NCBI GenBank assembly: GCA_900764725.1
Contig: CAAFPB010000026.1
Location: forward strand, 1 to 15,880
Direction of reading: 5' to 3'
Length of the DNA stretch: 15,880 bases
Origin: an uncultured Catenibacterium sp.
GTDB taxonomy: Bacteria; Bacillota_I; Bacilli_A; Erysipelotrichales; Coprobacillaceae
The translations under genes were made by a program, and so were the position numbers. The notes below the pieces were generated by a model. The model did not search any database. It saw nothing but the letters and a program-made list of their open reading frames with translations, and was not told where the DNA came from. Positions 364 to 15,880 of the stretch are shown piece by piece; position 1 is the stretch's first letter, and each line of letters begins with the position of its first letter.

Positions 364-390
364 TAGAGATGCTCCTTTCTTAAAATACAC

Positions 391-420: not shown

Positions 421-486
421 CGTTATCAAGACAAGCTTGTGCGTTTCCAATAATACCCTAAATCAATGTTCTTTTTTGCATGACTT

Positions 487-515
487 ACTTTAATATATTT
501 TAGGAAATATGTCAA
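487..515 (-). promoter_or_regulatory. Candidate promoter for DUF2798 gene
   Basis: On the minus strand a perfect TTGACA (515-510) is followed after 17 bases by TAAAGT (492-487), a 4/6 match to the -10 box. The -35 box overlaps the stop codon of the upstream regulator. Initiation near 480 would give a leader of about 115 nt containing the hairpin at 391-420. The 364-511 intergenic stretch otherwise shows only a 10-bp palindrome at 431-440. Confidence 0.5.
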
Positions 516-1903
516 TAAAGTATTTTCTCTAATATTTCAATTGCTTTTGGTAGTTTATCCAAGTCAATAGAAGAGTAATTCATAATAAAGGTATGTGATG
601 TATGAGGTATATTCTTTAGATAGTAATGAGAAATCGCTCTTAGATGTATACCTTGTTCTTTTAATTTATTAATAAGTGTTTCATCAGACATATGTGTATG
701 AATTGTAATAAGGAAATGGAGACCTGCATCTTCCTTAGATATAGTAATCATATCCTTTAATTTACTTTCTTCTAACATTTTTACAATTGCATCACGCTTA
801 TTATGATAATGATTACGTAATTTAGTAATATGCTTATCAAAATAATGTTCATTAATAAATGATGCAAGAGTATATTGTTCGAAGTTAGAGACAGTACAGG
901 CATAGAAAGATAACTTCTTATTATAAAGTTCTAATAAGTGATGAGGAAGTACCATATAGCTAATACGAATAGTGGAAGCAAGAGTCTTAGTGAAAGTATT
1001 CATATAGATGACCTTTTCACTTAAATCTATACTTTGAAGTGCAGGAATAGGATGACCACTCAAACGTAATTCGCTATCATAATCATCTTCAATAATATAG
1101 CGATGTTCTTTTTTGTTTGCCCAGCCAAGTAATTCATAACGTCTAGACACAGGCATAATAATACCGGTAGGGAAGTGATGAGAAGGAGAAATATGTGTAA
1201 TATCTACATTTAAATCTTCTAATTGATCCACAAGTATTCCCTGCTCATCCATATCAATAGGAACACATTTAGCCCCTAAACTAGAATAAACATCAAGTAT
1301 CTTATTATAGCCAGGATTCTCTACTGCATATAAAAGATCTAAACCTAATAATTGTACGAGTAGTCCATATAAATATTCAGTCCCTGCACCGATGATGATT
1401 CTTTCAGGTTCTACATCCATATTTCTAAATTCTTTTAAATGATGAGAAATCGCTTCTCTTAATTCATAAATACCACCTACTGGAGGATTAACCATTAATT
1501 CTCTCTGATGTTCATTTAATACTTCCTTCATAAGTTTAGCCCAGGTTGTAAAGGGAAATAAATGGGCAGGTGTCTGATTAGAAGAAAAATCACACCAATA
1601 AGTTTCTTTCTTAATAGAAGGTTTATGAATTATCTTGGTAGGAATAAGAGGTGTCTTATTATTAATTGGAGAGACATAAAAGCCTTTTTTTGGTAAAGAA
1701 TAAATATAACCTTCAGCCATTAACTGGGCATAGGCATTTTCTATTGTGATAATACTAATACCAAGATTTTTCGCAAATGTACGCTTAGAGGGCAGTTTTT
1801 CATCTGCAGTTAAATGTCCTTCTAGAATATCATTTTTAATGAATGCATATAATTGCTGGTAGAGAGATGTATGATTATTTTCGTCAAAACTATAAGTAAG
1901 CAT
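512..1903 (-). CDS. MocR-family GntR/aminotransferase-like transcription regulator
   Basis: A 463-residue protein with the standard MocR two-part architecture. Residues about 10-75 form a GntR winged helix (SLYQQLYAFIKNDILEGHL, LPSKRTFAKNLGIS, then ENAYAQLMAEGYIY). Residues about 110-463 form a fold-type I aminotransferase-like domain. The PLP-binding signature is visible: NPGY near 196, DDYDSE at 273-278, and the Schiff-base lysine K306 in FTKTLAS. Such proteins bind PLP or a PLP-amino acid adduct and act in the cytoplasm as activators or repressors of neighbouring genes, often also of their own. The start at 1903 has AAAGGA just upstream. It is divergent from the GNAT gene with a 93-bp gap, so that gene is the natural candidate target. 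It is not clearly PdxR, since no pdxS/pdxT is present. The family is certain; effector and regulon are unknown. Confidence 0.93.
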   Translation of the reverse strand: MLTYSFDENNHTSLYQQLYAFIKNDILEGHLTADEKLPSKRTFAKNLGISIITIENAYAQLMAEGYIYSLPKKGFYVSPINNKTPLIPTKIIHKPSIKKETYWCDFSSNQTPAHLFPFTTWAKLMKEVLNEHQRELMVNPPVGGIYELREAISHHLKEFRNMDVEPERIIIGAGTEYLYGLLVQLLGLDLLYAVENPGYNKILDVYSSLGAKCVPIDMDEQGILVDQLEDLNVDITHISPSHHFPTGIIMPVSRRYELLGWANKKEHRYIIEDDYDSELRLSGHPIPALQSIDLSEKVIYMNTFTKTLASTIRISYMVLPHHLLELYNKKLSFYACTVSNFEQYTLASFINEHYFDKHITKLRNHYHNKRDAIVKMLEESKLKDMITISKEDAGLHFLITIHTHMSDETLINKLKEQGIHLRAISHYYLKNIPHTSHTFIMNYSSIDLDKLPKAIEILEKILY

Positions 1904-1927
1904 AAGTGATTCCTTTCATTTTTTCAT

Positions 1928-1933
1928 ATTATA
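1928..1933 (-). promoter_or_regulatory. Candidate -10 box for the MocR-type gene
   Basis: A perfect TATAAT on the minus strand lies about 25 bases before the ATG at 1903. The region 17 bp upstream (TTCTTT) is a poor -35 box, so this promoter may be weak or activator dependent. It shares the 93-bp divergent intergenic region with the GNAT promoter. Confidence 0.5.
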
Positions 1934-1943
1934 GCGTAATCAT

Positions 1944-1972
1944 TTGAAAAAAAGAAGAAAACAGAATAGAAT
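1944..1972 (+). promoter_or_regulatory. Candidate promoter for the GNAT gene
   Basis: TTGAAA (1944-1949), a 17-bp spacer and TAGAAT (1967-1972) form a near-consensus housekeeping promoter. Transcription from about 1979 would leave a very short leader before the ATG at 1997. The -35 region lies close to the divergent regulator promoter, a usual place for a MocR operator. Confidence 0.65.
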
Positions 1973-1996
1973 AGTCATATTAATGGAGGATAATCT

Positions 1997-2575
1997 ATGG
2001 CATTAACTGCTAAAAGAATTACAGAGAATTTTAAAGAATTAGAAGACCTTAATAATGAAGCATTTCCTAAAGAAGAACGTGTATCTATTGAAAGAATGAT
2101 TGATTTATCTCATACAGGTATTTCAGATCTTTATGGTGTCTATGATGAAGATACATTTGTTGGTTTCTTTATGACAATGACATCTGATACATGTGTCTAT
2201 TTATTCTATCTTGCAATCCGTTCATCACTTCGTTCTCATGGTTATGGAGGACGTACTTTAAAATTGATGGATGATCTCTATCAAAGACAGATAGTATTAG
2301 ATATGGAACCTTTAGATGACAAGGCAGATAACTATGAACAACGTTTAAGACGTACTAAGTTTTATGCAAGTCATGGCTATCGTTCAAGTGGTTATCATTT
2401 ATTCTATTGGAATCAGACATTTGATTTATTATGTACAAGAGGACCATTCCTTAAAGATGACTTTATTGAAATTACAAAAGAACTTCAAAGAGTAGTGGAT
2501 GAATCAGGAGAAGGAGACTTCCATCCAAAGATGTTGAAGGCAGACTATGATATTCTAGATATTATTGACTTGTAA
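1997..2575 (+). CDS. GNAT-family N-acetyltransferase
   Basis: A 192-residue cytoplasmic protein with the GNAT fold, which transfers an acetyl group from acetyl-CoA to an amine. The acetyl-CoA pyrophosphate loop is visible as R79-S-H-G-Y-G84 after the strand CVYLFYLAIRSS, followed by the helix RTLKLMDDLY. The later KFYASHGYR (about 115-124) is the typical FY..GF segment of motif B. A C-terminal extension of about 45 residues (from about 148) is not obviously part of the core domain. GGAGGA stands seven bases before the ATG. The gene is monocistronic, between its own promoter and the terminator at 2574-2596, and divergent from a MocR-type regulator that probably controls it. The substrate cannot be told from sequence; a small-molecule amine or amino acid is as likely as a protein. 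Confidence 0.85.
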   Translation: MALTAKRITENFKELEDLNNEAFPKEERVSIERMIDLSHTGISDLYGVYDEDTFVGFFMTMTSDTCVYLFYLAIRSSLRSHGYGGRTLKLMDDLYQRQIVLDMEPLDDKADNYEQRLRRTKFYASHGYRSSGYHLFYWNQTFDLLCTRGPFLKDDFIEITKELQRVVDESGEGDFHPKMLKADYDILDIIDL

Positions 2576-2596
2576 GAACCGAGAGGTTCTTTTTTT
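2574..2596 (+). terminator. Intrinsic terminator after the GNAT gene
   Basis: AGAACC-GAGA-GGTTCT (2575-2590) followed by six further T residues. The stem begins inside the GNAT stop codon. It separates the GNAT unit from the PRD regulator and PTS cluster. Confidence 0.9.
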
Positions 2597-2599
2597 CAT

Positions 2600-2616
2600 T
2601 TCCTAACACTTAGGAA
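2600..2616. repeat. Inverted repeat, possible operator upstream of PRD regulator
   Basis: TTCCTAA-CAC-TTAGGAA is a perfect 7-bp inverted repeat with a 3-bp centre. It lies just after the GNAT terminator and overlaps the region where the -35 box would be for the TATTAT at 2632-2637. No T-run follows it, so it is not a terminator. A binding site for a dimeric regulator is possible; a match of this size can also arise by chance. Confidence 0.4.
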
Positions 2617-2631
2617 GTTAAATTGAATGCA

Positions 2632-2653
2632 TATTATCCTGTAAACCGTTACA
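2632..2653 (+). promoter_or_regulatory. Candidate -10 box and cre-like (CcpA) site before the PRD regulator
   Basis: TATTAT (2632-2637) is a plausible -10 box with a weak -35. Immediately after it, TGTAAACCGTTACA (2640-2653) fits the catabolite-responsive element pattern for CcpA apart from the centre, and has 5-bp inverted arms TGTAA/TTACA. A cre over the start of transcription would repress when preferred sugars are present, which suits the first gene of a PTS cluster. Identification is by consensus only. Confidence 0.42.
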
Positions 2654-2676
2654 ATAAAGATGCAGGAGGTGTTCAT

Positions 2677-4551
2677 ATGAATAATAGACAGCAGCGTATT
2701 ATAGATATTCTTCATGATTATGATGAATGGGTAACAGGTAAAGAGCTTGCTTCTATGTTGTCTGTATCAGATCGTACAATTCGTTCTGATATTGAGCATA
2801 TTAATAAAGAGTATGAATGTACTCTTATAGAAGCCAATCGTCGTAAGGGATATCACCTAGATGAAATGTTGACAAGTGTCAAAGGGATTACGACTCAGTC
2901 AGTCATTCCTCAGACATCTCAAGAACGTGTATCCTGGATCATTAAGGAACTATTATTTAAACAGGAAATTAATCTGATTGAATTACAGGATCGTATTTAT
3001 GTCAGTGGTTATACGATTGATAACGATTTAAGAAATATCAGACGTATACTTAATGAATATCCTTCATTAAAAGTGGTTCGTGTAAAGAATCATATCCGTT
3101 TAGAAGGCGATGAGAATGAAAAGCGTTCTGTATATAAGCATTTATTAGAATCAGAAATCAAAGGAAACTTCACTAATATCAGTGCTTTGTCTCATTTATG
3201 GAAGGACTTTGATTTGATTGATGTAGTAGATATCTTCAAGAATGTTTGTGCAAATAATCATTATAAGTTCAAGAATGTCAGTCTTCCAATGTTGATGATG
3301 CATGCGGGTATTGCGATTGAACGCATTAGGAATAAGAATTACTTATATGAATCACAAAGTGACTGCACGGGCATTGATCTAGAATATCGTGTCGCAAAGG
3401 ATTTTTTTGAAGAATTATCAGATGAACTAGGTATTCCTTATGTTGAAGAAGAAGTAGTCAAATTTGCCTTCTTATTAGAAGGAAGAGGCAGTCATGTAGA
3501 CTTGAAAACGGAATCACAGCAGTTAGTAGAAGAAGTACTTGTAGATATTAAAGACTGCTTTGATATAGATTTTAGAGATGATGAAGAACTTTATAATAGT
3601 TTAGTGATTCATATGCAGTCATTACTTGATCGTATTAAAGTAGATAAGTCTAATACAACAGCTTATTTAAAGGAGATTAAAAGACAATATCCTTTAGTTT
3701 TTGAAATGGCGATTCATGCCAGTGATGTGATCTCTAAGGCAACAGGTAAATCTTTAGTAGAAGATGAAATATCTTATCTTGCCTTACATTTTGGAACAGC
3801 TTATGAAAGACATATCAATACACAAAAATACCGTGTAGTGATGATTATTCCCCATAATCAGATGCTTGCGAAAGCCTGCAAGGATAAAATAGAAACTCGT
3901 TTTAGAGAACGTATGGAAATTATTAAGGTATTCCCATTCTTTGAAAATAATATGATTGCATCACTTCATCCAAATTTGATTTTGACTGTAGTCCCATTAC
4001 AGCATGAACTGTCTATTAAGACAGTATCAATAAGTCTTTTTGTGAATTATGAGGATGAAAGTCAGATATTCCAGGCATTAAATCAATTGGATAGAGAAAA
4101 ATATCATGATCAGTTCTGTCATATTGTAGAGAAGCTTATTGGACAGGAAACATTCTTTATTAAAGAGGGTATCGCATCTAAAGAAGATGCAATCAACTAT
4201 CTATGTGACAATCTGATTCAGTTAGGCTATGTCACAAAAGAATATAAAGAAGATGTCTTTAAAAGAGAAGAAATGGCAGGAACAGCCTTTGTACAGGGCT
4301 TTGCGGTTCCTCATGCCATTACAGTACAACCACTACGTTCTACTATATCTGTCATGGTATTAAAGAATCCAGTTCAGTGGGGGAAATATGAAGTACGACT
4401 TATTCTCTTATTATCTATTAGTGAACAGGACAATCAGATGCTGCATACATTCTTTGACTGGTTATCCAATGTACTTATTGATTACAACCAGCTGATGCAG
4501 TTTATCGAAGTGGACAATTATCAACAATTTATGAAATTAATGACAGCGTGA
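2677..4551 (+). CDS. PRD-domain transcription regulator with EIIB-like and EIIA domains
   Basis: I start this 624-residue protein at 2677, which has AGGAGGTG just upstream; an in-frame TTG at 2623 has no such site. Order of domains: helix-turn-helix at about 21-43 (GKELASMLSVSDRTIRSDI); a second, Mga-like helical DNA-binding region at about 82-140; PRD1 about 175-275 with H209; PRD2 about 280-385 with H312 and H371 (EISYLALHF); an EIIB-like domain about 385-470; and an EIIA domain of the fructose/mannitol type about 485-624 with the phosphorylatable H546 in FAVPHAI. This is the LicR/MtlR type of PTS-controlled DNA-binding activator, tuned by phosphorylation from HPr and PTS enzymes. The EIIB-like part has no cysteine at its usual active position (VVMIIPHNQML), and PRD1 seems to have Leu where a second histidine is expected. 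It heads the PTS cluster and most likely regulates it. Confidence 0.92.
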   Translation: MNNRQQRIIDILHDYDEWVTGKELASMLSVSDRTIRSDIEHINKEYECTLIEANRRKGYHLDEMLTSVKGITTQSVIPQTSQERVSWIIKELLFKQEINLIELQDRIYVSGYTIDNDLRNIRRILNEYPSLKVVRVKNHIRLEGDENEKRSVYKHLLESEIKGNFTNISALSHLWKDFDLIDVVDIFKNVCANNHYKFKNVSLPMLMMHAGIAIERIRNKNYLYESQSDCTGIDLEYRVAKDFFEELSDELGIPYVEEEVVKFAFLLEGRGSHVDLKTESQQLVEEVLVDIKDCFDIDFRDDEELYNSLVIHMQSLLDRIKVDKSNTTAYLKEIKRQYPLVFEMAIHASDVISKATGKSLVEDEISYLALHFGTAYERHINTQKYRVVMIIPHNQMLAKACKDKIETRFRERMEIIKVFPFFENNMIASLHPNLILTVVPLQHELSIKTVSISLFVNYEDESQIFQALNQLDREKYHDQFCHIVEKLIGQETFFIKEGIASKEDAINYLCDNLIQLGYVTKEYKEDVFKREEMAGTAFVQGFAVPHAITVQPLRSTISVMVLKNPVQWGKYEVRLILLLSISEQDNQMLHTFFDWLSNVLIDYNQLMQFIEVDNYQQFMKLMTA

Positions 4552-4559
4552 GGTAACTT

Positions 4560-5111
4560 ATGAAAAAACAACAACAGACTATTGCATCTTTGCCAAGACG
4601 TTTTGGTGCTTATTTATTAGATTGGTATATCGGTGCTCTTTTTACATCATTTCCTATTGCGATTGTTTCACAGAAATTCTATGGCACAATGAAGAACCAA
4701 AATCTATTAGAATACCCTCATCAGTTAGGACTGATCTGTGGTTTACTCGCATTATTAGGTGCCACTATTTACTATGTCATTATTCCTTTAGTGGTTAATA
4801 AAGGACAGACAATTGGCAAGAGAATTTGTCATATTAAGATTGTAAAGAGTGATGGTAAAGATGTAGGACTTAAAGAATTATTACTAAGAGAAGTATTAGG
4901 AGCCATTATTATTGAAGGAGTTCTTTATTCTGCAAGTACAATATTACATCAGGTCTTACAGATTGGTTTAGGGATTAGTTTAGTGAAGCCAATGATGTAT
5001 GTTGGATTTGTGATTACGATTGTGAGTGCTATTTTATGTCTCGTGAACAAGAAAGAACATCTAGCACTACATGATTATCTAGCACGTACTAAAGTAGTGA
5101 ATTTTTCCTAA
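4560..5111 (+). CDS. RDD family membrane protein
   Basis: A 183-residue integral membrane protein. The N-terminal RRFGAYLLDWYIG (about 13-25) carries the Arg and Asp that name the RDD family. GQTIGKRICHIKIVKSDG near the middle is the second family hallmark, placed between hydrophobic segments. About four membrane helices can be seen (roughly 20-40, 58-80, 115-135, 140-162). The family is widespread, with suggested transport roles but no general function. It starts 8 bp after the PRD regulator, and its ribosome binding site (GTGAGGT) overlaps that gene's stop codon, so the two are co-transcribed. Its link to the PTS downstream is positional; a 74-bp gap with a possible internal promoter separates it from EIIA. 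Confidence 0.88.
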   Translation: MKKQQQTIASLPRRFGAYLLDWYIGALFTSFPIAIVSQKFYGTMKNQNLLEYPHQLGLICGLLALLGATIYYVIIPLVVNKGQTIGKRICHIKIVKSDGKDVGLKELLLREVLGAIIIEGVLYSASTILHQVLQIGLGISLVKPMMYVGFVITIVSAILCLVNKKEHLALHDYLARTKVVNFS

Positions 5112-5153
5112 ATAGAGGAAATCGCATTCACTGCCTGAAAATAAATAAAAGTT

Positions 5154-5159
5154 TATACT
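5154..5159 (+). promoter_or_regulatory. Candidate -10 box before the PTS genes
   Basis: TATACT lies 27 bp before the EIIA start in the only sizeable gap (5112-5185) of this part of the cluster. No good -35 is present at the right distance (CTGCCT), as would suit activation by the PRD regulator. The same gap has the imperfect inverted repeat TTTCCT...AGGAAA (5104-5121) and two copies of GAGGAAATC, the second being the EIIA ribosome binding site. Confidence 0.35.
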
Positions 5160-5185
5160 ATGAATTGTGAGATGGAGGAAATCAC

Positions 5186-5512
5186 ATGGAAGATTTAGAA
5201 TTATTAAGTTTTAATATTATTTCTGCAGTGGGTACTGCAAAGTCACGTTATGTACAGGCAATGTATCTTGCTGAGAAGGGTGATTTTGATGAAGCTCGCG
5301 CAAAAATAAAAGAAGGAGAAGAAAGCTTTGTGAAAGGTCATGAAGCACATGCATCACTTATCCAGAAGGAAGCATGTGGTGAAAAGACAGTTCCAACAAT
5401 TCTTCTTATGCATGCGGAAGATCAGCTTATGAATGCTGAAACAACTAAGATCATGGCTGAAGAGATTATCAAACTATCTCAAAGAATTAAAAAATTTGAA
5501 GGAGGAGAATAG
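5186..5512 (+). CDS. PTS lactose/cellobiose-family EIIA
   Basis: A 108-residue, all-helical cytoplasmic PTS protein. It accepts phosphate from phospho-HPr on a histidine and passes it to EIIB. The active site is H76 in ILLMHAEDQLM, the hallmark of the Lac/Cel EIIA family; the N-terminal helix ELLSFNIISAVGTAKSRYVQAM is also typical. The length is normal for a stand-alone ChbA/CelC-like protein. GGAGGAAATCAC precedes the ATG. Its stop codon (TAG at 5510-5512) is one base before the EIIB start, so A and B are tightly coupled. Lac-family systems transport lactose, cellobiose or diacetylchitobiose; here the neighbours suggest a GlcNAc-type glycoconjugate, but that is inferred. Confidence 0.95.
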   Translation: MEDLELLSFNIISAVGTAKSRYVQAMYLAEKGDFDEARAKIKEGEESFVKGHEAHASLIQKEACGEKTVPTILLMHAEDQLMNAETTKIMAEEIIKLSQRIKKFEGGE

Positions 5513-5513
5513 G

Positions 5514-5837
5514 ATGAAAAAGGTTTATTTATTCTGTAGTGCAGGTATGTCTACTAGTATTCTTGCAAGTAAGATGCAGGAAGTCGCTAATAGCCATAAC
5601 CTACCAATCAAGGTGGCTGCATTCTCTCATAACAAATTAGGAGAAATCGTTAATTCAGATTGTCCTGATTGTATTTTACTTGGCCCACAGGTTGAATATC
5701 TTTATGATGAAACAGTGGCTAACTTTGGACACCTTAACGTACCTATTTCTGTCATCGACCAGGATGATTACGGTATGATGAATGGTGAAAGAGTACTTAA
5801 AAAAGCAATTCTATTAATCAAGAAAAACAATAAATAA
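5514..5837 (+). CDS. PTS lactose/cellobiose-family EIIB
   Basis: A 107-residue cytoplasmic protein beginning MKKVYLFCSAGMSTSIL. C8, just after the first strand, is the phosphorylated cysteine, followed by the phosphate-binding loop SAGMSTS typical of cellobiose/chitobiose EIIB. The domain then follows the usual pattern, with DCILLGPQVEYL near the middle and SVIDQDDYGMMNGE near the end. The start at 5514 is chosen because GGAGGAGAATAGG lies directly before it and the conserved strand begins at once; an in-frame ATG at 5433 would add 27 residues overlapping EIIA. It passes phosphate from EIIA H76 to the sugar bound by the EIIC encoded 23 bp downstream. Confidence 0.95.
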   Translation: MKKVYLFCSAGMSTSILASKMQEVANSHNLPIKVAAFSHNKLGEIVNSDCPDCILLGPQVEYLYDETVANFGHLNVPISVIDQDDYGMMNGERVLKKAILLIKKNNK

Positions 5838-5860
5838 TAATTAAAGGGAGTACTTAAAGT

Positions 5861-7228
5861 ATGATGAAACAACTTGAAAAGTATTTAATGCCTCTAGCGG
5901 AAAAAATCGGGCGTAATAAATACTTAATGGCAATCCGTGATGGTTTCTTAGTATCAACACCATTACTTATTGCAGGATCAATTTTCTTATTAATCGCAAA
6001 CTTTCCAATTACAGCTTGGACAAATTTCTTAGAATCAACAATTGTTAACCAGGAAACTGGTCAGTCATTAGCTGCTTTCTTATCAAAGCCATCTGATGCA
6101 ACATTCACTATTATGGCAGTATTTGCGGTAATGGGTATCGCTTATTCATTTGCTGGTCAGATGAAGACAAATAAGATCTTCGGTGCTGCTTGTGCACTTA
6201 TGTCATGGTTCTTAATCATGCCATACTCAATCACTGGTAACGTTACTGTAGGATCTAAAACTATTGAAGCAACTCTTTCAGGTATCCCATTAGGATGGGT
6301 TGGCGCAAAGGGTATCTTCGTAGGTATTATTACTGCATTCCTAAGCGTACATATCTATGCCTGGGTAGAAGGTAAGGGCTGGACAATCAAGATGCCAGCT
6401 GGTGTTCCACCAACAGTTGTAGAATCTTTCTCAGCATTGATTCCAGCAACATTCGTAATGACTTTCTTCTTCCTAGTTAACTTAATGTTTGGTTTCTTAG
6501 GAACAAACGTATTCCAGATTATCTTTGAATTCTTACAGACACCATTACTTAACCTTGGTGATACATTAGGTGCAATGGTTGTTGCTTATATCTTCTTACA
6601 CTTATTCTGGTTCTTTGGTATCAACGGTGGATCAGTAGTAGGTGCTGTATTTAACCCAATTCTTCAGACTTTATCAGCTGAAAACATTCTTTTCTTTACT
6701 AAGGGACAGGGTACAGGTCATATCATCTGTCAGCAGTTCCAGGACTTATTCGCTACATTTGGTGGATGTGGTTCTACATTATCATTATTAATCGCAATGT
6801 TATTATTCTGTAAATCTAAACGTATTACAGACTTAGGTAAACTTGCATTAGTTCCAGGTATCTTTGGTATCAACGAACCAATCGTATTCGGTTTACCAAT
6901 CGTATTAAACCCTACTATGCTTATTCCATTCATGTTAGTACCAACAGTAAACATCATTATTTCATACTTCTGTATGTCTCTTAAGATTGTTCCAATCTGT
7001 TCAGGTATCAACATTCCTTGGACTATGCCACCAATTATCTCAGGTTTCTTAGCAACTAACTGGGTAGGTGCTGTTCTTCAGGCTGCTTTAATTGTGATTG
7101 GTGTAATTATCTATATGCCATTCATCAAGGTACTTGATAAGCAGTATTTAAATGAAGAAGCTCAGGCTCAGGCTGCTAAAGAAGAAGACGACATTGATTT
7201 AGACGACTTATCTTTTGATGATCTATAA
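5861..7228 (+). CDS. PTS lactose/cellobiose-family EIIC permease
   Basis: A 455-residue polytopic membrane protein, the sugar-translocating subunit. The N-terminus (LEKYLMPLAEKIGRNKYLMA, then IRDGFLVSTPLLIAGS) is the standard start of cellobiose/diacetylchitobiose EIIC proteins. About ten hydrophobic segments follow. FFGINGGSVVGAVFNPI and GIFGINEPIVFGLPIVLNP are characteristic; the conserved NEP in the latter belongs to the substrate site. The acidic tail EEDDIDLDDLSFDDL is longer and more negatively charged than I would expect. Two adjacent ATGs (5861 and 5864) are possible; AAAGGGAG upstream suits either. The gene uses many C-ending codons (TTC, ATC, AAC), unlike most neighbours, consistent with strong expression when induced. 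No 6-phospho-glycosidase lies nearby, unusual for a disaccharide PTS. Confidence 0.95.
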   Translation: MMKQLEKYLMPLAEKIGRNKYLMAIRDGFLVSTPLLIAGSIFLLIANFPITAWTNFLESTIVNQETGQSLAAFLSKPSDATFTIMAVFAVMGIAYSFAGQMKTNKIFGAACALMSWFLIMPYSITGNVTVGSKTIEATLSGIPLGWVGAKGIFVGIITAFLSVHIYAWVEGKGWTIKMPAGVPPTVVESFSALIPATFVMTFFFLVNLMFGFLGTNVFQIIFEFLQTPLLNLGDTLGAMVVAYIFLHLFWFFGINGGSVVGAVFNPILQTLSAENILFFTKGQGTGHIICQQFQDLFATFGGCGSTLSLLIAMLLFCKSKRITDLGKLALVPGIFGINEPIVFGLPIVLNPTMLIPFMLVPTVNIIISYFCMSLKIVPICSGINIPWTMPPIISGFLATNWVGAVLQAALIVIGVIIYMPFIKVLDKQYLNEEAQAQAAKEEDDIDLDDLSFDDL

Positions 7229-7244
7229 GAAGGAGAGATGAAAC

Positions 7245-7766
7245 ATGAAAATCGTAATGATTTATGACCAGATCCAGTCTGGTAAAGGGATTAAAGATGA
7301 TCACATGGTACCTTTAGGACTAGTAAAAGAATCATGTGGACCTGCTATTATGATGGAACCATTCTTAAAACAGGTAAATGGACATGTTGTATGCTGTTTA
7401 TATTGTGGTGATGGATTCTATGAAGCAAATAGTGATGAAGTCAGCCGTAAACTTTGCGCAATGGTAGAAAAAATCAAACCAGATGTTGTTGTATGTGGTC
7501 CATGTTTCAACTATCTTGGCTATGGACGCATGGCTGCACGTGTCGCTTATGATATTAATGAAAAAACTCATTCACATGCTATGGCTGCAATGAGTATAGA
7601 AAATGAAGAGACAATTAATGAATATAAAGACAAGATTCATATCATCAAGACACCTAAGAAGGGTGGTACTGGTTTAAATGAATCATTAGAAGGTATCTGT
7701 CAGCTTGCTAAGGCAATGTGTGAACAGAAAGACGAAGACATCGTTGCTTCTAAATATTGTTTCTAA
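7245..7766 (+). CDS. GrdB-like protein (N-terminal part only), cysteine-rich
   Basis: A 173-residue protein that aligns, from memory, with the N-terminal third to half of GrdB, the substrate-binding/selenoprotein subunit of glycine, sarcosine and betaine reductases. The matching landmarks are GPAIMMEPFLKQVNG, CGDGFYEANSDEV (GrdB CGDNY...N), PDVVVCGPCFNYLGYG (GrdB AGPAF.AGRYG) and SIENEETINEYKDKIHIIK (GrdB EENPGV...). The C-terminal half of GrdB with the selenocysteine motif is absent, and there is no in-frame TGA. It has ten cysteines, including C51-LY-C54 and C84-GP-C87; the latter is the thioredoxin-type CGPC, where GrdB has alanines. It may be redox active or bind metal or substrate; no GrdA, E, C or D partners are present. 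AAGGAGAG precedes the start, 16 bp after EIIC, so it belongs to the PTS operon. Function unknown. Confidence 0.75.
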   Translation: MKIVMIYDQIQSGKGIKDDHMVPLGLVKESCGPAIMMEPFLKQVNGHVVCCLYCGDGFYEANSDEVSRKLCAMVEKIKPDVVVCGPCFNYLGYGRMAARVAYDINEKTHSHAMAAMSIENEETINEYKDKIHIIKTPKKGGTGLNESLEGICQLAKAMCEQKDEDIVASKYCF

Positions 7767-7774
7767 AACTACTT

Positions 7775-7801
7775 GAGGATACGTGAGGACGTATCCTCTT
7801 T
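7775..7801 (+). other. Strong intercistronic hairpin, possible partial terminator or RNA processing site
   Basis: GAGGATACG-TGAGGA-CGTATCCTC (7775-7798) is a perfect 9-bp stem with a 6-nt loop in the 56-bp gap between the GrdB-like and glycosylasparaginase genes. Only three T residues follow, so full termination is unlikely. It may protect the upstream PTS mRNA or lower expression of the downstream enzymes relative to the transporter. Confidence 0.7.
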
Positions 7802-7822
7802 CAATAAAAGGAGGAAAATATT

Positions 7823-8776
7823 ATGTATGGTATTATTGCTACTTGGAGAATGGCTTTAGAAGGAATCACAAAAGCCGATGAAGTATTAAAGAATCATGGA
7901 GATGCAGGAGATGCTATTGTAAAAGCTGTTAAAGCTGTAGAAGATTTCCCATATTATAAATCAGTAGGATATGGAGGATTACCTAATGAAGAAATGATTG
8001 TTGAATTAGATGCGGCTTATATGAATGGTAATACTCTTTCTGTAGGATGTGTTGGGGCAATCAAAGACTTCGCGAACCCTGTAGAAATCGCAAGAAAGTT
8101 ATCTCATGAAAAAGTCAACAACTTCTTAGTTGGAGCAGGTGCTGAAAAGTATGCATCTAAGAATGGTTTTGAAAGAAAGAATATGCTCACTGAACGTGCA
8201 GAAATTCATTATCATAATAGATTAAAAGAAATGACTCAGGAAATTAAACCTTATTCTGGTCATGATACAGTTGGTATGGTCTGCTTAGATGAACATGATA
8301 AGATGACTTCTGCGACTTCTACAAGTGGTTTATTTATGAAACGTTCTGGTAGAGTGGGTGATTCACCAGTATCTGGTTCTGGTTTCTATGTAGATAGTGA
8401 AGTAGGTGGTGCAAGTGCAACAGGGCTTGGCGAAGATGTCATGAAGGGCTGTGTCTCTTATGAAATCGTAAGAATGATGAAGGAAGGTATGCATCCTCAG
8501 GAAGCATGTGAAAAGGCTGTTAATACATTCTCTAAAGAATTGATCAAACGTCGTGGTGAAGCAGGAGATATGTCTTTAATCGCTATGAATAATAAGGGTG
8601 AATGGGGATGTGCGACTAATATTGAAGGATTCTCATTTGTTGTTGCAACTCCTGAACTTGAACCAACTGTATTTGTAGTTAAGCATGAAGGTGAACATAG
8701 CGTCTTTGAAAAAGCAAGTCAGGAATGGCTTGATGATTATATGCGTACAAGAACAGCCCCATTGGTAAGAAAATAA
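7823..8776 (+). CDS. Glycosylasparaginase (N4-(beta-N-acetylglucosaminyl)-L-asparaginase), cytoplasmic
   Basis: A 317-residue Ntn-hydrolase of peptidase family T2. It should cleave the amide bond joining an asparagine side chain to GlcNAc, giving aspartate and 1-amino-GlcNAc. The GHDTVGMV motif places the self-cleavage site between D148 and the nucleophile T149, giving subunits of about 148 and 169 residues. The substrate-site signature GRVGDSP...GASATG matches the Arg, Asp and Thr-Gly that bind the aspartyl part in human AGA. The N-terminal ATW and SVGYGGLPNEE also match AGA, which favours AGA over isoaspartyl dipeptidase. There is no signal peptide, unlike the secreted or lysosomal enzymes I know, so it acts inside the cell. 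AAGGAGG precedes the ATG; its stop overlaps the peptidase start (TAATG). Next to a PTS, the likely substrate is an imported, perhaps 6-phosphorylated, glycosyl-asparagine (inference). Confidence 0.93.
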   Translation: MYGIIATWRMALEGITKADEVLKNHGDAGDAIVKAVKAVEDFPYYKSVGYGGLPNEEMIVELDAAYMNGNTLSVGCVGAIKDFANPVEIARKLSHEKVNNFLVGAGAEKYASKNGFERKNMLTERAEIHYHNRLKEMTQEIKPYSGHDTVGMVCLDEHDKMTSATSTSGLFMKRSGRVGDSPVSGSGFYVDSEVGGASATGLGEDVMKGCVSYEIVRMMKEGMHPQEACEKAVNTFSKELIKRRGEAGDMSLIAMNNKGEWGCATNIEGFSFVVATPELEPTVFVVKHEGEHSVFEKASQEWLDDYMRTRTAPLVRK

Positions 8777-9870
8777 TGAATGAAGAAATACTAAAAGCTG
8801 TTGATGAGATTGCGGATGAGATGATTGAAGGCATCAAGCGTATTGTACGTATTGATAGTGTAGAATCTGAGGCTGTGAGTGATGCTCCTTTTGGAGAAGG
8901 TGTACGCCATGCACTTGATGAAACACTTCAGTTATCTCGTGATCTTGGATTTGAAACAGTGGATGTTGATCATTATATCGGCTATGCACGTTATGGTAAA
9001 AGTGATGATTATGTATGTGCCTGTGGGCATTTAGATGTAGTACCAGTAGGTGAAGGGTGGAAACATCCTCCATTTAGTGCTTATGAAGAAGATGGTGTGA
9101 TTTATAGCCGTGGTATTCTAGATAATAAGGGACCTATTCTTTCATGTCTTTATGCTTTAACTGCTTTAAAGAGACTAGGTATAAAGCCTGAAAGAGAAGT
9201 ACGTATTATCTTTGGTTGTGATGAAGAATCAGGATTTGAAGATTTAAAATATTATTTAGATCATGAAAAAGCACCTGTTGCTGGCTTTACACCAGATTGT
9301 AAATATCCTGTTGTTTATGCTGAAAGAGGACGTGCAGTCATCAAAGTAAAAGCTGATCTAGATCATCTGATTACATTTGTGAATAAGTATATCTTGAATA
9401 CTCAAAATAAAGGTGAAAGACTTGGTATTGATTACAAGAATGATGAATTCGGTCAGTTAGAAATCCGTAACTATCATTTGACTAAAGAATACTTCAGTTT
9501 CTCTATTAGTTATCCTGCAGGACTAACCCTAGAAGAAATACTTAATAAACTTTATCTTATTGAAGGATATGAGTATGAAGTCGTGTCTCATTTCAAGCCT
9601 GTTTATTTTGATAAGAAGGCACCAATGGTAGAAATCATGAAAGAGACATATGAATATGTGACTGGTAATGATGGTACACCTGTGACTACTACAGGTGGTA
9701 CTTATGCAAAGATGATGCCTCATATTGTCCCATTTGGTCCTTCTTTCCCAGGTCAGAAGGGTATTGGACATAATCCAAATGAATGGATGACAAGAAAAGA
9801 TTTAATCACTAATGCGAAGATTTATGCATTAACACTTTATCAATTGTCTAGAAAGGAAACAGAGTTATGA
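8776..9870 (+). CDS. Compact PepV-like M20 family metallopeptidase
   Basis: A 364-residue cytoplasmic protein of the M20/PepV dipeptidase type. The metal site looks complete: H85 and D87 in CGHLDVVP, D116 in LDNKGP, E150-E151 in CDEESG, D174 in FTPDCKYPV, and H332 in GIGHNPNEW. PepV enzymes are about 470 residues; this one is about 100 shorter. The loss is in the lid domain: right after RAVIKVKADL the sequence jumps to LITFVNKYI, skipping the usual G..AH...P..G.NA segment that carries a catalytic, dimer-bridging histidine. Activity or specificity may therefore differ. The start shares one base with the glycosylasparaginase stop and has little Shine-Dalgarno, so translation is probably coupled. 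AGA needs asparagine with free amino and carboxyl groups, so a trimming dipeptidase fits this place (inference). Confidence 0.85.
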   Translation: MNEEILKAVDEIADEMIEGIKRIVRIDSVESEAVSDAPFGEGVRHALDETLQLSRDLGFETVDVDHYIGYARYGKSDDYVCACGHLDVVPVGEGWKHPPFSAYEEDGVIYSRGILDNKGPILSCLYALTALKRLGIKPEREVRIIFGCDEESGFEDLKYYLDHEKAPVAGFTPDCKYPVVYAERGRAVIKVKADLDHLITFVNKYILNTQNKGERLGIDYKNDEFGQLEIRNYHLTKEYFSFSISYPAGLTLEEILNKLYLIEGYEYEVVSHFKPVYFDKKAPMVEIMKETYEYVTGNDGTPVTTTGGTYAKMMPHIVPFGPSFPGQKGIGHNPNEWMTRKDLITNAKIYALTLYQLSRKETEL

Positions 9871-10607
9871 TCGAAGTATGTTGTGGAAGCTATAAGGATG
9901 GTTTACGTGCTTATCATGGTGGTGCAAAGCGTATTGAATTAAACAGTGCCCTTTATTTAGGAGGTTTGACACCTTCAGTGGCTTCATTAAAACTCTTAAA
10001 AAGAGAAACAACGCTTACTATTATCTGTATGGTTAGACCTCGTGGTGCTGGTTTTACTTATGATGAAATAGAATATAAACAGATGTTATTAGAAGCAGAA
10101 GACCTATTAGAAAATGGTGCAGATGGACTCGCTTTTGGCTTCTTAAATAGTGATTATACAATTGATGTTAAGCGTACAAGAGAATTTGTAGAACTCATTC
10201 ATAAATATCATCGTACTGCTGTATTCCATCGTGCCTTTGACTGCTGTGATGATTTAGATCATGTCATGAGCCAGTTGATTGAACTTGGCGTAGATCGTGT
10301 ATTGACTAGTGGAGGACAGCCTACTGCTATTGATGGAAAAGATATGATCAAATCATTACAGGATAAATATGGGCAGAATATTCAAATTCTTGCAGGAAGT
10401 GGTGTAAACTATAATAATGCATCATCTTTAATGGAATATACTGGTATTGATCAGGTCCATTCTTCTTGTAAGGATTATGAAGAAGATCCTACAACATCTG
10501 GTAAATCAGTCACTTATAGCTATTATACTGGTGCACATGTCAATGATTATGAAAGTGTAGATCAGGAAAATGTCGAAAAACTTGTCAGCAGCTTACAAAA
10601 CAAATAA
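9867..10607 (+). CDS. cutC: CutC family TIM-barrel protein
   Basis: A 246-residue protein with clear CutC signatures: EVCCGSYKDGLRAYHGGAKRIELNS and GGLTPS at the N-terminus, MVRPRGAGFTYDE near 55-68, FHRAFD near 120, and GVDRVLTSGG near 146. CutC was named for copper tolerance in E. coli, but the biochemical role of this TIM-barrel family is unsettled and it is often found beside sugar genes. Its start overlaps the peptidase stop by four bases (ATGA), so it is translationally coupled to the pathway genes. In this setting an enzymatic role on the amino-sugar product seems at least as plausible as copper handling, but nothing in the sequence decides this. The length is normal for the family. 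It should not be confused with choline TMA-lyase, which shares the symbol. Confidence 0.92.
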   Translation: MIEVCCGSYKDGLRAYHGGAKRIELNSALYLGGLTPSVASLKLLKRETTLTIICMVRPRGAGFTYDEIEYKQMLLEAEDLLENGADGLAFGFLNSDYTIDVKRTREFVELIHKYHRTAVFHRAFDCCDDLDHVMSQLIELGVDRVLTSGGQPTAIDGKDMIKSLQDKYGQNIQILAGSGVNYNNASSLMEYTGIDQVHSSCKDYEEDPTTSGKSVTYSYYTGAHVNDYESVDQENVEKLVSSLQNK

Positions 10608-11448
10608 AAGATATATTATTACTTTCTTTGCAGTGCTTTTTTCTGCACTCTTGCAGACGTTTGTACTTCAAACATTTTTGAATCCATCTGACTTGCTTTC
10701 AAGTGGTTTTACAGGAATTGCGATTCTGATTAACCGTATCAGTATGCTTTATGGATATTCTTTATCTATTTCCACACTTGTAATTGTATTGAACTTACCT
10801 GTCGCAATTGTCTGTTATAAGACAATAGGTAAGAAGTTTGTTTTCTTCTCTTTCTTACAAGTTATCTTCTTCAGTATTTTTACAAGAGTGTTATCATTTG
10901 ATCCATTATTTGATGATGTGATCTTGAATGTCTGTTTTGGTGGATTCCTTTACGGTTTTGCGATTGCGATTGCTTTAAAAGGTAATGCAAGTACAGCTGG
11001 GACTGACTTTATTGCTTTATATGTATCTAATAAAATGAACAAGTCAATCTTTGAATATATATTTGTCTTTAATACATTAATGTTATGTGTATTTGGATTT
11101 ATGTTTGGCTGGATTCATGCAGGATATTCAATATTATTCCAATTTCTCTCAACAAAAACGATTGATACATTCTATAAGCGATATAAACGAGTGACATTAG
11201 AAATCACTACAATTCATCCAGAAGAATTACGCAAGGCTTATATTGCACAATATCGTCATGGCCTAACAATGCTTCATGGTGAAGGGGGCTATAGTGGTCA
11301 TCCTCTTACTATGATTCATACTGTCGTATCAAGCTATGAAGTACAGGATATTGTGGACTTAATGAAGAGTATTGATCCTCATGTCATTATTAATATATTG
11401 CCTACAGAAAACTTTATCGGTGGATTCTATCAAAAACCACTGGATTAA
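10570..11448 (+). CDS. YitT family membrane protein (DUF2179 C-terminus)
   Basis: A 292-residue protein with about five or six membrane helices in the first 190 residues, followed by a soluble C-terminal domain of the DUF2179 type (about 205-290, VTLEITTIHPEELRKAYI to IINILPTENFIGGFYQ). Family landmarks include LNPSDLLSSGFTGIAILI near 36 and GNASTAGTDFIALY near 140. YitT-family proteins are common in Bacillota; their function is unknown. The ATG at 10570 lies 38 bp inside cutC with AGGAAA upstream; a TTG at 10582 is an alternative, but a later start would cut into the first helix. It is the last gene before the strong terminator at 11447-11469. Its relation to the PTS pathway is by transcription only. 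Confidence 0.88.
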   Translation: MSKNLSAAYKTNKRYIITFFAVLFSALLQTFVLQTFLNPSDLLSSGFTGIAILINRISMLYGYSLSISTLVIVLNLPVAIVCYKTIGKKFVFFSFLQVIFFSIFTRVLSFDPLFDDVILNVCFGGFLYGFAIAIALKGNASTAGTDFIALYVSNKMNKSIFEYIFVFNTLMLCVFGFMFGWIHAGYSILFQFLSTKTIDTFYKRYKRVTLEITTIHPEELRKAYIAQYRHGLTMLHGEGGYSGHPLTMIHTVVSSYEVQDIVDLMKSIDPHVIINILPTENFIGGFYQKPLD

Positions 11449-11469
11449 CAGGCTTCGGCCTGTTTTTTT
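11447..11469 (+). terminator. Strong intrinsic terminator ending the PTS cluster
   Basis: AACAGGC-TTCG-GCCTGTT (11447-11464) with a stable TTCG tetraloop, followed by five more T residues. The stem starts inside the YitT stop codon. It ends the operon that began at the PRD regulator. Confidence 0.95.
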
Positions 11470-11473
11470 GCGT

Positions 11474-11500
11474 AAAAAAACCTCTCAAAATAGAGAGGTT
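11474..11500 (-). terminator. Intrinsic terminator of the AGCS symporter gene
   Basis: Read on the minus strand, AACCTCTC-TATTTT-GAGAGGTT (11500-11479) runs into further T residues (the A-run at 11474-11480). The first arm overlaps the symporter stop codon. It lies back to back with the plus-strand terminator of the YitT gene, only a few bases apart. Confidence 0.93.
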
Positions 11501-12845
11501 AGATACTTAATTCTTCTATAGTACAAGTGTTTTCTTCTTGGAAATATTCTTCTGTTTCCGCAATAACTTCTTTTCTAAGTCCAATCAAACCAATCAGGTT
11601 AGGAATAGCCATACAGCCATTCACGATATCTGCAAGAATAAAGATAAACTTTAATGACATAAATGGACCAATCGCAATAAGAATAATAAAGATGATCTTA
11701 TAAATTTTGATAGAACGAATACCTGCAAGATAATACATACATCTTTCACCATAGTAGTTCCATCCAATAATTGTTGTAAAGGCAAAGAAAATCAAACCAA
11801 CATTCACAATATATTCTCCAATAAATGGAATAATAAGTCCTCTATTAAAGGCAAGAGATGTGACTGCAGCACCTTCTAAGCCACTTGTATTTGCGCCAGT
11901 GATTAAAATTGCAAGACCTGTCATTGTACAGATGACCATTGTATCAATAAAAGTACCTGTCATAGAAACAAGACCCTGTTCTACACATGAATCAGTCTGT
12001 GCAGCAGCTGCTGCAATAGGAGCACTTCCTAAACCACTTTCGTTAGAGAAGATTCCTCTACTAATACCCATTTTCATCGCAACACCCATTCCAGCGCCAA
12101 AGACTGCTTTGATATCAAAAGCTGAAGTAAGAACTGTCTTTAATACATGAGGAATCATTGGAAGATGAGTTACTAGAATAAGTACAACACCACCAATATA
12201 AAATACACACATAAATGGAATGACTTTTTCGGCCACTGCCGCAATTCTATGAATTCCACCAATGGTAATAAAACCAACAAGAACTGTAAGAATAATCGCA
12301 CTGATCCAGTAAGGTACATGGAAAGAAAGATGTAATGCATCAGAAATTGATCTTACCTGTGTAAACGTACCAATACCTAAATATGCGACTGCTACACCAA
12401 AGAAGGCAAATAGACTTGCTAGAAACTTGTTGTGTAGACCTTTTTCAATATAGTACATAGGACCACCGGCTATTTGTCCATTTTCATCTTTTGTACGATA
12501 TTTAATGGCAAGCACTCCTTCTGCATACTTAGTGGCCATACCAAAAAAAGCTGAAATCCACATCCAGAAAAGTGCGCCAGGACCACCTGCAGAAATCGCA
12601 GTTGCTACTCCTACGATATTACCTGTTCCAATAGTAGAACTTAATGCAGTACACAATGCCTGGAAGCTAGAAACATCACCTTCTTGATTTTCATTCTTTT
12701 TAAAAATCAAAGAGAAAGCCTTTTTTAATCTTACAAACTGAATAAACTTTAAATGAGTAGTAAAATAAATACCTGTTCCTAGTAATAATAGGATAAGGGG
12801 CATACCCCATACGAGATTGTTGACTTGAGTCAAAAATTTTGTCAT
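11499..12845 (-). CDS. AGCS family sodium:amino acid (alanine/glycine) symporter
   Basis: A 448-residue integral membrane protein of the alanine-or-glycine:cation symporter family, which takes up glycine or alanine with sodium. Recognisable parts are FQALCTALSSTIGTGNIVGVATAI with AGGPGALFWMWISAFFGMATKYAEG (about 62-110), GGPMYYIEKGL, FSNESGLGSAPIAAAAAQTD (about 267-286) and the C-terminal IIGWNYYGERCMYYL. About ten to eleven membrane helices. The ATG at 12845 has AGAAGGAG just upstream. The leader carries a tandem glycine riboswitch, so glycine is very probably the main substrate, and excess glycine presumably lowers transporter expression as is usual for riboswitch-linked AGCS genes. Single-gene transcript with its own promoter and terminator. 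It is unlinked to the plus-strand PTS cluster, which it faces tail to tail. Confidence 0.95.
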   Translation of the reverse strand: MTKFLTQVNNLVWGMPLILLLLGTGIYFTTHLKFIQFVRLKKAFSLIFKKNENQEGDVSSFQALCTALSSTIGTGNIVGVATAISAGGPGALFWMWISAFFGMATKYAEGVLAIKYRTKDENGQIAGGPMYYIEKGLHNKFLASLFAFFGVAVAYLGIGTFTQVRSISDALHLSFHVPYWISAIILTVLVGFITIGGIHRIAAVAEKVIPFMCVFYIGGVVLILVTHLPMIPHVLKTVLTSAFDIKAVFGAGMGVAMKMGISRGIFSNESGLGSAPIAAAAAQTDSCVEQGLVSMTGTFIDTMVICTMTGLAILITGANTSGLEGAAVTSLAFNRGLIIPFIGEYIVNVGLIFFAFTTIIGWNYYGERCMYYLAGIRSIKIYKIIFIILIAIGPFMSLKFIFILADIVNGCMAIPNLIGLIGLRKEVIAETEEYFQEENTCTIEELSI

Positions 12846-12901
12846 AAAAAAACTCCTTCTAATAAATTAGACGGAATTAATAGTGAAAAGTATAAGTCAC
12901 T
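12846..12901 (-). promoter_or_regulatory. Expression platform of the glycine riboswitch
   Basis: Minus-strand leader between aptamer and ATG. A long hairpin pairs AAUUCC (12878-12873) with GGAGUU (12856-12851), with an inner UCUAAU/AUUAGA stem, and runs into U residues just before the ATG. It resembles a terminator and also buries the Shine-Dalgarno (AGAAGGAG). Upstream, AGUGA (12901-12897) can pair with UCACU (12886-12882), competing with the P1 stem of the second aptamer. The exact switching path is not certain. Confidence 0.65.
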
Positions 12902-13028
12902 GTCCTTTTACCTGAGAGTGTTACTCCTTCGGTGCTCATTATGAGTCTCTCCAGTGATTCGTCCAATAGCGATCCTTTTACCTGAAATCTTCCATCCTTC
13001 GGTGTTCTTACAAAGAATCTCTTTCGCT
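12898..13028 (-). ncRNA. Tandem glycine riboswitch
   Basis: Two glycine aptamers lie in series on the minus strand. Aptamer 1 is 13028-12968 and aptamer 2 is 12956-12898, joined by about 11 nt. Each has the conserved core CACCGAAGG and the downstream CAGGTAAAAGGA, closed by P1 stems (AGCGA/TCGCT for the first; CACTG/CAGTG for the second). It controls the AGCS symporter that starts about 50 nt further on. Identification is by the conserved core, which is highly specific. Confidence 0.95.
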
Positions 13029-13056
13029 ACTATCATCCGTTCTTTTACAAGAAAAC

Positions 13057-13085
13057 ATTATAAACAGAGAACTTTATAAATTCAA
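13057..13085 (-). promoter_or_regulatory. Promoter of the glycine riboswitch and symporter
   Basis: On the minus strand TTGAAT (13085-13080), a 17-bp spacer and a perfect TATAAT (13062-13057). Initiation near 13050 starts the RNA about 20 nt before the first aptamer. Confidence 0.75.
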
Positions 13086-13110
13086 TGTTTTTTTCTTCTA
13101 AAAGCTTTTG

Positions 13111-13116
13111 TATAAT
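13111..13116 (+). promoter_or_regulatory. Candidate -10 box for the SGNH hydrolase gene
   Basis: A perfect TATAAT lies 22 bp before the ATG at 13139. The -35 region (a T-run near 13088-13093) is poor. It is close to the divergent riboswitch promoter; an AAAAGCTTTT palindrome (13100-13109) sits between them. Confidence 0.5.
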
Positions 13117-13138
13117 AATAAAAAAGGGGAATAAATTT

Positions 13139-13675: not shown

Positions 13676-13686
13676 TGGATTTTTTT
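13664..13686 (+). terminator. Weak intrinsic terminator after the SGNH gene
   Basis: AAATCC-TTATAAT-GGATTT (13664-13682) followed by T residues. The stop codon lies in the loop. The stem is only 6 bp and AT-rich, so some read-through into the MATE gene is likely. Confidence 0.6.
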
Positions 13687-13699
13687 ATACGCTCAAAAG

Positions 13700-13708
13700 T
13701 GCTATACT
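13700..13708 (+). promoter_or_regulatory. Candidate extended -10 promoter for the MATE gene
   Basis: TGCTATACT is an extended -10 element (TGn plus TATACT), 22 bp before the MATE ATG. Only the T-rich end of the preceding terminator is available as a -35. Confidence 0.5.
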
Positions 13709-13730
13709 TCGTCATTAGGGGGATTACTAT

Positions 13731-15814: not shown

Positions 15815-15845
15815 AAATACACTCCTTGTAAACGATAATGATATT

Positions 15846-15874: not shown

Positions 15875-15880
15875 TCAGAA

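Follow-up and report, generated by a model that had tools for sequence, protein, structure and literature searches.

Why would a bacterium keep the gene for a glycosylasparaginase (AGA) in one operon with a sugar phosphotransferase system (PTS)? The question is raised by contig CAAFPB010000026.1 of an uncultured Catenibacterium sp., positions 1 to 15,880 of which make up the whole stretch analysed here (the window). Ten plus-strand genes, among them those for AGA, a PepV-like peptidase and enzymes IIA, IIB and IIC (EIIA, EIIB and EIIC) of a Lac-family PTS, form one operon-like array that runs from 2677 to a terminator at 11447–11464, as seen from the list of open reading frames (ORFs) and from searches with Pfam and NCBIfam profiles. 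A preliminary description had proposed that the PTS imports N-acetylglucosaminyl-asparagine (GlcNAc-Asn) or a short glycopeptide, which a peptidase and AGA then take apart, and this core proposal gains support, on sequence evidence, from co-occurrence of the genes and from a residue that the EIICs share. We give a probability of roughly 0.72 to the view that the operon serves the uptake and breakdown of N-glycan remnants on asparagine by way of the PTS, the peptidase and AGA. The system would thus be a PTS-coupled variant of the known glyco-asparagine catabolism, a reading well supported by comparative evidence; the computed support consists of the gene pairing and its reappearance in distant lineages, together with the EIIC residue and the presence of nagA.

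Recurrent pairing of AGA with a Lac-family PTS

Pairing was first assessed in 98 relatives of G001, the genome nearest to the window. AGA was found in 59 of them (counting one copy in pieces, in G002, and one decayed copy, in G020) and the gene for a short GrdB-like protein, which adjoins EIIC in the mapped loci, in 21. All 21 genomes with the GrdB-like gene also carry AGA, as against 59/98 overall (Fisher's exact test, 5.8e-6, uncorrected for kinship), and in 20 of these the two genes lie at most 12 kb apart on one contig, those of G061 being on separate contigs. A scan of public species genomes for the GrdB-like protein, which reaches close relatives only, returned 22 loci, mostly from Clostridia and Coriobacteriia, with EIIC in 22/22 and AGA in 21/22. 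Among the AGA+EIIC loci the GrdB-like gene was present in 40/42, a figure biased by the many loci that had been fetched by means of that gene.

The pairing extends to plasmids and to distant chromosomes. A plasmid search for AGA gave 130 records, 30 of them listed; ten regions were opened, nine of which were annotated, and AGA stood with a Lac-family PTS in three of the nine. In Enterococcus raffinosus and E. gilvus the order is GntR-PepV-AGA-EIIB-EIIC-EIIA, and in Latilactobacillus curvatus AGA-GntR-GrdB-like-EIIC-PepV. An even sample of the phylum (392 genomes) contained AGA in 36, six of which lie outside the order of the window. In five of these six, all with in-frame TGA codons and so perhaps mollicutes, which is our guess only, AGA lies directly among Lac-family EIIA, EIIB and EIIC genes; in the sixth, G178, AGA was not among Lac-family EII genes. 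One TGA-reading locus, L242, has the order EIIB-DUF3284-M17 aminopeptidase-EIIC-AGA-EIIA, and three more such genomes show a matching order of EII and AGA genes. The five code-4 loci concerned are L239, L240, L242, L243 and L244, and the array of L242 additionally contains an RpiR regulator. The preliminary description had staked its proposal on such co-occurrence in other genomes, and the pairing is indeed found in relatives, Clostridia, Coriobacteriia, Enterococcus, Latilactobacillus and the five TGA-reading genomes.

An asparagine signature in the linked EIIC

All three components of a Lac/cellobiose-family PTS are present in the operon: EIIA (5186–5512; PF02255), EIIB (5514–5837; PF02302, and TIGR00853 at 83.7 bits; its ATG start was taken from the sequence, the mechanical ORF beginning at 5433) and EIIC (5861–7228; PF02378, and TIGR00410 at 417 bits against a cut-off of 236). 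EIIC did not reach the cellobiose equivalog TIGR00359 (417 of 434.45 bits) or the chitobiose model PRK10297 (211 of 760). Its only solved relative is 3qnq (E = 5.9e-93), the chitobiose EIIC (ChbC) of B. cereus, a substrate given in PMC12791066 (excerpts). In the alignment, His250 of 3qnq, within a GIHG motif, falls on Asn255 of the window EIIC (codon AAC, 6623–6625), and Glu334 is kept as Glu339. Both His250 and Glu334 of 3qnq reportedly contact the sugar, and a part of His250 in substrate binding is attributed to the structure paper on bcChbC.

Asparagine occupies the His250 site in 39/39 non-identical EIICs from AGA-tagged loci and in 6/7 EIICs from loci that were untagged or tagged by the GrdB-like protein alone; L042, the one that differs, has histidine and no AGA match in its locus. 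The 36 unlinked Lac-family EIICs, which come from five of the same genomes, comprise 34 with histidine, one with serine and one with asparagine. This background was compiled without 6/30 and 3/20 loci that had an internal stop or no clean ORF and without five EIICs that were themselves linked to AGA; the comparison also leaves out the split EIIC of L041 and some EIICs at contig ends. As a later test, the comparison was extended to EIICs from the TGA-reading genomes, picked only by their AGA neighbour and 26–31% identical over the aligned part; 5/5 have asparagine. EIICs linked to AGA therefore have a single-site substitution in common, a signature that is new here.

Whether this EIIC type has one origin or several was approached with a tree from which the trait column had been removed. 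One group (support of 98–99 in the Shimodaira-Hasegawa-like approximate likelihood ratio test, SH-aLRT) unites the linked EIICs from the order of the window, from Clostridia and Coriobacteriia and from Enterococcus and Latilactobacillus, and it includes L042, while four similar rows from TGA-reading genomes and L239 fall outside it. A single clade for all 31 linked rows with asparagine was rejected by the approximately unbiased (AU) test (p = 0.0037); for this tree, near-identical rows had been reduced in number and six background rows on long branches removed. Because the linked EIICs do not form one clade, it is likely, though not proved, that the asparagine type linked to AGA arose repeatedly.

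A proposed route for N-glycan remnants and its rivals

The AGA gene (7823–8776) matches PF01112 at 205 bits (cut-off 27) and would encode an Ntn (N-terminal nucleophile) hydrolase with Thr149 as nucleophile. Its best match in the PDB is the glycosylasparaginase 1p4k (E = 1.2e-56), presumably from Elizabethkingia; solved glycosylasparaginases reach 196 bits and isoaspartyl peptidases at most 114 bits. Thr149, Arg177, Asp180, Thr200 and Gly201 are kept in 75/75 homologues and Trp8 in 74/75, so that the protein has the fold, the threonine and the conserved Arg177 and Asp180 of the Asparaginase_2 family, in which the threonine is the autoprocessing nucleophile and the arginine and aspartate belong to the asparagine pocket. 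It shares 54% identity with a protein of Latilactobacillus sakei that carries the name N(4)-(beta-N-acetylglucosaminyl)-L-asparaginase. The window protein has no leader ahead of its core, and homologues from Enterococcus and Latilactobacillus are longer by one residue there; those from Hymenobacter (three), Persicobacter and Sphingomonas (one each) carry a signal-like N-terminal extension of 36–44 residues. The window AGA is thus predicted, from its family and residues, to be a cytoplasmic enzyme that cleaves GlcNAc-Asn. There is precedent in Lactobacillus casei: its cytoplasmic AsnA2 was shown in vitro to free GlcNAc from GlcNAc-Asn, and growth on fucosyl-GlcNAc-Asn (6'FN-Asn) depends on this enzyme; the asparagine of an AGA substrate must have free amino and carboxyl groups (PMC6960285, excerpts).

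The peptidase gene follows directly (8776–9870). Its presence was correctly described before, but its identity has been revised to a Sapep-type M20 dipeptidase (TIGR01887, 349 bits against a cut-off of 208) that stays below the PepV equivalog NF005591 (334 of 435 bits) and has a shortened lid, about 100 residues being absent relative to 3khz and 1lfw. Homologues in the mapped loci have 359–418 amino acids. An active site with so short a lid would be more open and might suit bulky glycopeptides. M20 PepV-like proteins occur in 41/42 AGA+EIIC loci, pairs of M42 peptidases are also present in 7/42 (L056 was checked), and an M17 leucyl aminopeptidase is found in L242, with ORFs of similar size and position in L240, L243 and L244. 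That three peptidase families (M20, M42 and M17) accompany the AGA-PTS pair fits a trimming of short glycopeptides ahead of AGA.

In the proposed route, a dedicated type of Lac-family PTS would import GlcNAc-Asn, or a di- or tripeptide that contains it, and phosphorylate the GlcNAc, presumably at C6 as judged from the PTS class. The short-lid peptidase would remove flanking residues, and AGA would hydrolyse the amide between sugar and asparagine to yield aspartate and 1-amino-GlcNAc, possibly as the 6-phosphate. This product would lose ammonia and enter the NagA route encoded elsewhere; nagA is present in 21/21 genomes with the GrdB-like gene and lies outside the cluster in G001. Phosphorylation during transport would take the place of the GlcNAc kinase SugK of L. 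casei. Core fucose, where present, takes up O6 of the GlcNAc, so that a route with phosphorylation at C6 should serve non-fucosylated remnants.

Several observations weigh against this reading. AGA is not bound to a PTS, since many of its loci, in relatives and on plasmids, show none: no such PTS was found nearby in 29/31 AGA loci mapped in relatives that lack the GrdB-like gene (31 of 38 such genomes were mapped, and the contig of one locus, L099, stops short on the upstream side of AGA), nor was a PTS found in 6/9 annotated plasmid stretches (three from Hymenobacter and one each from Persicobacter, Sphingomonas and Thermomicrobium). The sole unlinked EIIC with asparagine (L231/L237, G036:C1:2216390) lies among genes that, for the four neighbours scanned, are unrelated to the pathway and include an RpiR regulator, a FAD-domain protein and a CLC channel. 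The supported branches offer only three independent contrasts for asparagine against AGA linkage; a mean of 2.9 of the 3 go in the expected direction and none in the opposite one (sign test, median p = 0.25), and the number of origins is uncertain because the EIICs of the TGA-reading genomes sit on long branches. Four genes of the operon, those for CutC, RDD, YitT and the GrdB-like protein, are given no part by the pathway, and pepV was dispensable for growth of L. casei on 6'FN-Asn (PMC6960285, excerpts).

An alternative that we regard as possible but unlikely is that diacetylchitobiose or chitobiosyl-asparagine (GlcNAc-GlcNAc-Asn) is what the PTS takes up, with a GH170 phosphoglycosidase freeing GlcNAc-6-phosphate and AGA cutting the remaining GlcNAc-Asn, a step that it shares with the route preferred here. 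Such an enzyme would be at hand in part of the loci: a MupG-like GH170 gene accompanies 13/42 AGA+EIIC loci (by sequence clustering, one member being confirmed by Pfam), and G001 has one GH170 gene away from its cluster (C1:53713). The family includes the 6-phospho-MurNAc (N-acetylmuramic acid) hydrolase MupG and ChbE, and in Lactobacillus paracasei ChbE is needed for the use of diacetylchitobiose, in which it is joined by ChbD, a DUF3284 protein, and by a PTS of the cellobiose type (PMC12791066, excerpts). DUF3284 proteins are also encoded in two of the tested AGA-PTS arrays of TGA-reading genomes (L244 and, just below the Pfam cut-off, L242), and 3qnq, the one solved relative that the EIIC has, is of the chitobiose type. 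However, GH170 was not found in the window cluster or in 29/42 related loci, the change at the His250 site sets the window EIIC apart from the histidine type, and L042, which has GH170 but not AGA, retains histidine. The earlier remark that no phospho-glycosidase is present holds for the window cluster only, so that the argument drawn from it against a plain disaccharide PTS fails as a general one, and some related systems may take chitobiosyl-Asn.

Salvage of peptidoglycan, in which the PTS would take up MurNAc or GlcNAc compounds and an AGA-like enzyme would cleave beta-aspartyl cross-bridges, would agree with the peptidases beside the PTS and with the membership of MupG in GH170 noted above, but is very improbable given that AGA fits glycosylasparaginases better than isoaspartyl peptidases by the scores above and keeps the TW motif, that the cross-bridge aspartate is of the D form and that no MurQ, amidase or racemase was found among the ten genes of the window, to which the search was confined. 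Equally remote is the possibility that the AGA-family protein acts as an asparaginase or isoaspartyl peptidase and only happens to share a transcript with a common PTS of the cellobiose type, for although Asparaginase_2 proteins have broad beta-aspartyl activities and many AGA loci have no PTS, the pairing recurs across lineages in differing gene orders, the EIICs bear a distinctive residue and the cellobiose equivalog cut-off was, if narrowly, missed (417 of 434 bits).

Operon layout and the accessory genes

The preceding account of a ten-gene, one-strand cluster with short gaps or overlaps and a strong terminator was borne out for every named part by ORFs, profiles and folding. The first gene (2677–4551, with an alternative in-frame TTG start possible at 2623) encodes a PRD/Mga-type transcription regulator with a C-terminal EIIA-2 domain (PF00874, PF05043, PF08279, PF00359); it is probably the activator of the operon, and such a regulator is found in 36/42 AGA+EIIC loci. 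It is followed by an RDD-family membrane protein (4560–5111; PF06271), seen in 32/42 loci, and the last gene encodes a YitT-family membrane protein (10570–11448; YitT, PF02588, and DUF2179, PF10035). Spacing is tight throughout, with one base between EIIA and EIIB and overlaps of one base between AGA and the peptidase and of four bases between the peptidase and CutC. The intrinsic terminator, located by hairpin search and folding, is more stable than its own shuffles (z = -2.87). A second hairpin (7775–7798), with a 10-bp stem, lies between the GrdB-like and AGA genes, ahead of the AGA ribosome-binding site; none of 200 shuffles was equally stable, it has no U tract on the plus strand, and it may control the relative mRNA levels of the genes before and after it. 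Upstream of the array, a gene at 1997–2575 ends at its own terminator-like hairpin (2574–2591). The flanks further contain, both on the minus strand, a MocR/PdxR-like regulator (512–1903; NF052282) and an AgcS amino acid carrier (11499–12845; TIGR00835).

The GrdB-like protein (7245–7766, 173 amino acids) had been recognised as such; it is now assigned to NF041545, a selenium-free family with a model 171 positions long (237 bits against a cut-off of 175), and this family corresponds to the N-terminal part of GrdB only. The match to PF07355 covers positions 3–160 of 347, about the N-terminal half of GrdB. Its AlphaFold2 model has a confidence (predicted local distance difference test, pLDDT) of 97, and the fold gave no clue to its role. 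Since two nearly complete AGA-PTS loci, L082 and L084, lack the gene, it looks like an accessory part. More distant and longer GrdB matches occur in L122–L126.

CutC, a TIM-barrel protein (9867–10607), belongs to PF03932 (178 bits) and does not reach the NCBIfam equivalog PRK11572 (152 of 311). In 38/59 AGA genomes its gene has the same orientation as AGA and is no more than 5 kb away, and 19 of these are among the 38 AGA genomes that lack the GrdB-like gene. On three Hymenobacter plasmids (L127, L129, L134) AGA is directly followed by CutC with a 4-base overlap, near GH92 and, in one or other of them, ROK, GH2 or nagB. Residues Glu3, Cys5, Arg22, Glu24, Arg57, Arg59, His121, Arg122, Asp125, Thr147–Gly149 and His198 are kept in 53/53 proteins from AGA loci and resemble an active site. 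We tentatively raise, as a rather improbable idea, that CutC, whose ancient family takes its name from copper homeostasis, is truly an amino-sugar enzyme which deaminates or otherwise processes the 1-amino-GlcNAc (or its 6-phosphate) released by AGA and does related work in other GlcNAc pathways. If so, the operon would amount to a complete pathway for glyco-asparagine by way of a PTS, combining an EIIC type that evolved convergently with an enzyme of its own for handling the glycosylamine.

Other contexts of CutC are mixed. A plasmid search gave 65 records, 60 of them listed, from which ten annotated regions besides the three from Hymenobacter were picked by hand: five have genes of the GlcNAc or MurNAc type, two a BadF-type ATPase gene (presumably a sugar kinase, which is a guess) and three neither. 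The five contexts hold murQ with ROK (L138), nagA, nagB and GH20 (L139), GH20 alone in one and GH20 with nagB in the other of L140 and L141, and a fucosidase with ROK and an aminopeptidase; the BadF-type genes are in L143 and L145, these and L138–L141 being proteobacterial plasmids. The fucosidase context is that of L146, an Alkalihalophilus plasmid on which a dipeptide ABC (ATP-binding cassette) transporter, a leucyl aminopeptidase, CutC, an alpha-L-fucosidase and ROK form an array that may be an ABC-type glycopeptide route. In the window's order, 40 regions with CutC away from AGA yielded 39 CutC ORFs, and 101 of the 136 listed neighbours were scanned after near-copies and short or very long ORFs had been left out by hand; no NagA, NagB, GH20 or ROK was seen among the 25 of 98 neighbour families listed, and SIS_2 and GH1 were found in three members each. 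CutC was near AGA in 0/6 AGA genomes outside the order in the 392-genome sample, gave no match in 8/22 loci of the GrdB-like scan, which are of the Collinsella type (L032, L034–L040), and is not annotated beside AGA in the Enterococcus or L. curvatus regions. A general amino-sugar role for CutC was set aside, since its unlinked neighbours, the AGA genomes outside the order and the Collinsella-type loci speak against it. G001 has a second CutC gene outside the cluster (G001:C1:2469579, L184), and several relatives also have two.

Relation to known systems

If the proposed route is correct, it is a PTS route for glycosylated amino acids or peptides in Bacillota and Actinomycetota, including such genera as Collinsella and Butyricicoccus, which are known from the gut. 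No demonstrated PTS for glycosylated amino acids or peptides was found in the literature searched, which was limited to open-licence papers and makes this a weak negative. The one-residue signature could then be used to find such transporters, and the operon would offer a starting point for working out what CutC does biochemically.

Of the systems already described, GrdB, selenoprotein B of glycine/sarcosine/betaine reductase, is related through one gene only: the window protein matches about 160 residues at its N-terminus but is without the C-terminal selenocysteine part, so that it fails as a full-length GrdB, and it has EIIC for a neighbour. The exported AGAs of Bacteroidota share with the window the neighbouring CutC on the three Hymenobacter plasmids but differ in their signal-like extension and in having no PTS in the stretch. 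The diacetylchitobiose PTS (B. cereus ChbC, 3qnq; L. paracasei chb, PMC12791066, excerpts) has the same Lac/cellobiose-family EIIABC, and GH170 in some related loci adds to the likeness; the window differs by having AGA and a peptidase in place of the phosphoglycosidase, and asparagine in place of His250.

A further close parallel is alf-2 of L. casei BL23, with a cytoplasmic glycosylasparaginase, a PepV gene, uptake of the whole glyco-amino acid and delivery of the product to GlcNAc metabolism; it relies on the permease AlfH of the major facilitator superfamily (MFS), the fucosidase AlfC and the kinase SugK, in contrast to the PTS of the window operon (PMC6960285, excerpts). No MFS, fucosidase or ROK family was found among the ten operon genes, which sets the operon apart from alf-2 clusters. 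L. casei did not grow on GlcNAc-Asn itself, and the legend of Fig. 7 in the same paper, on clusters of other lactobacilli, expands the abbreviation PTS (PMC6960285; legend only). Should the proposal hold, the PTS route would complement the fucose-specific route of L. casei by serving remnants with a free O6.

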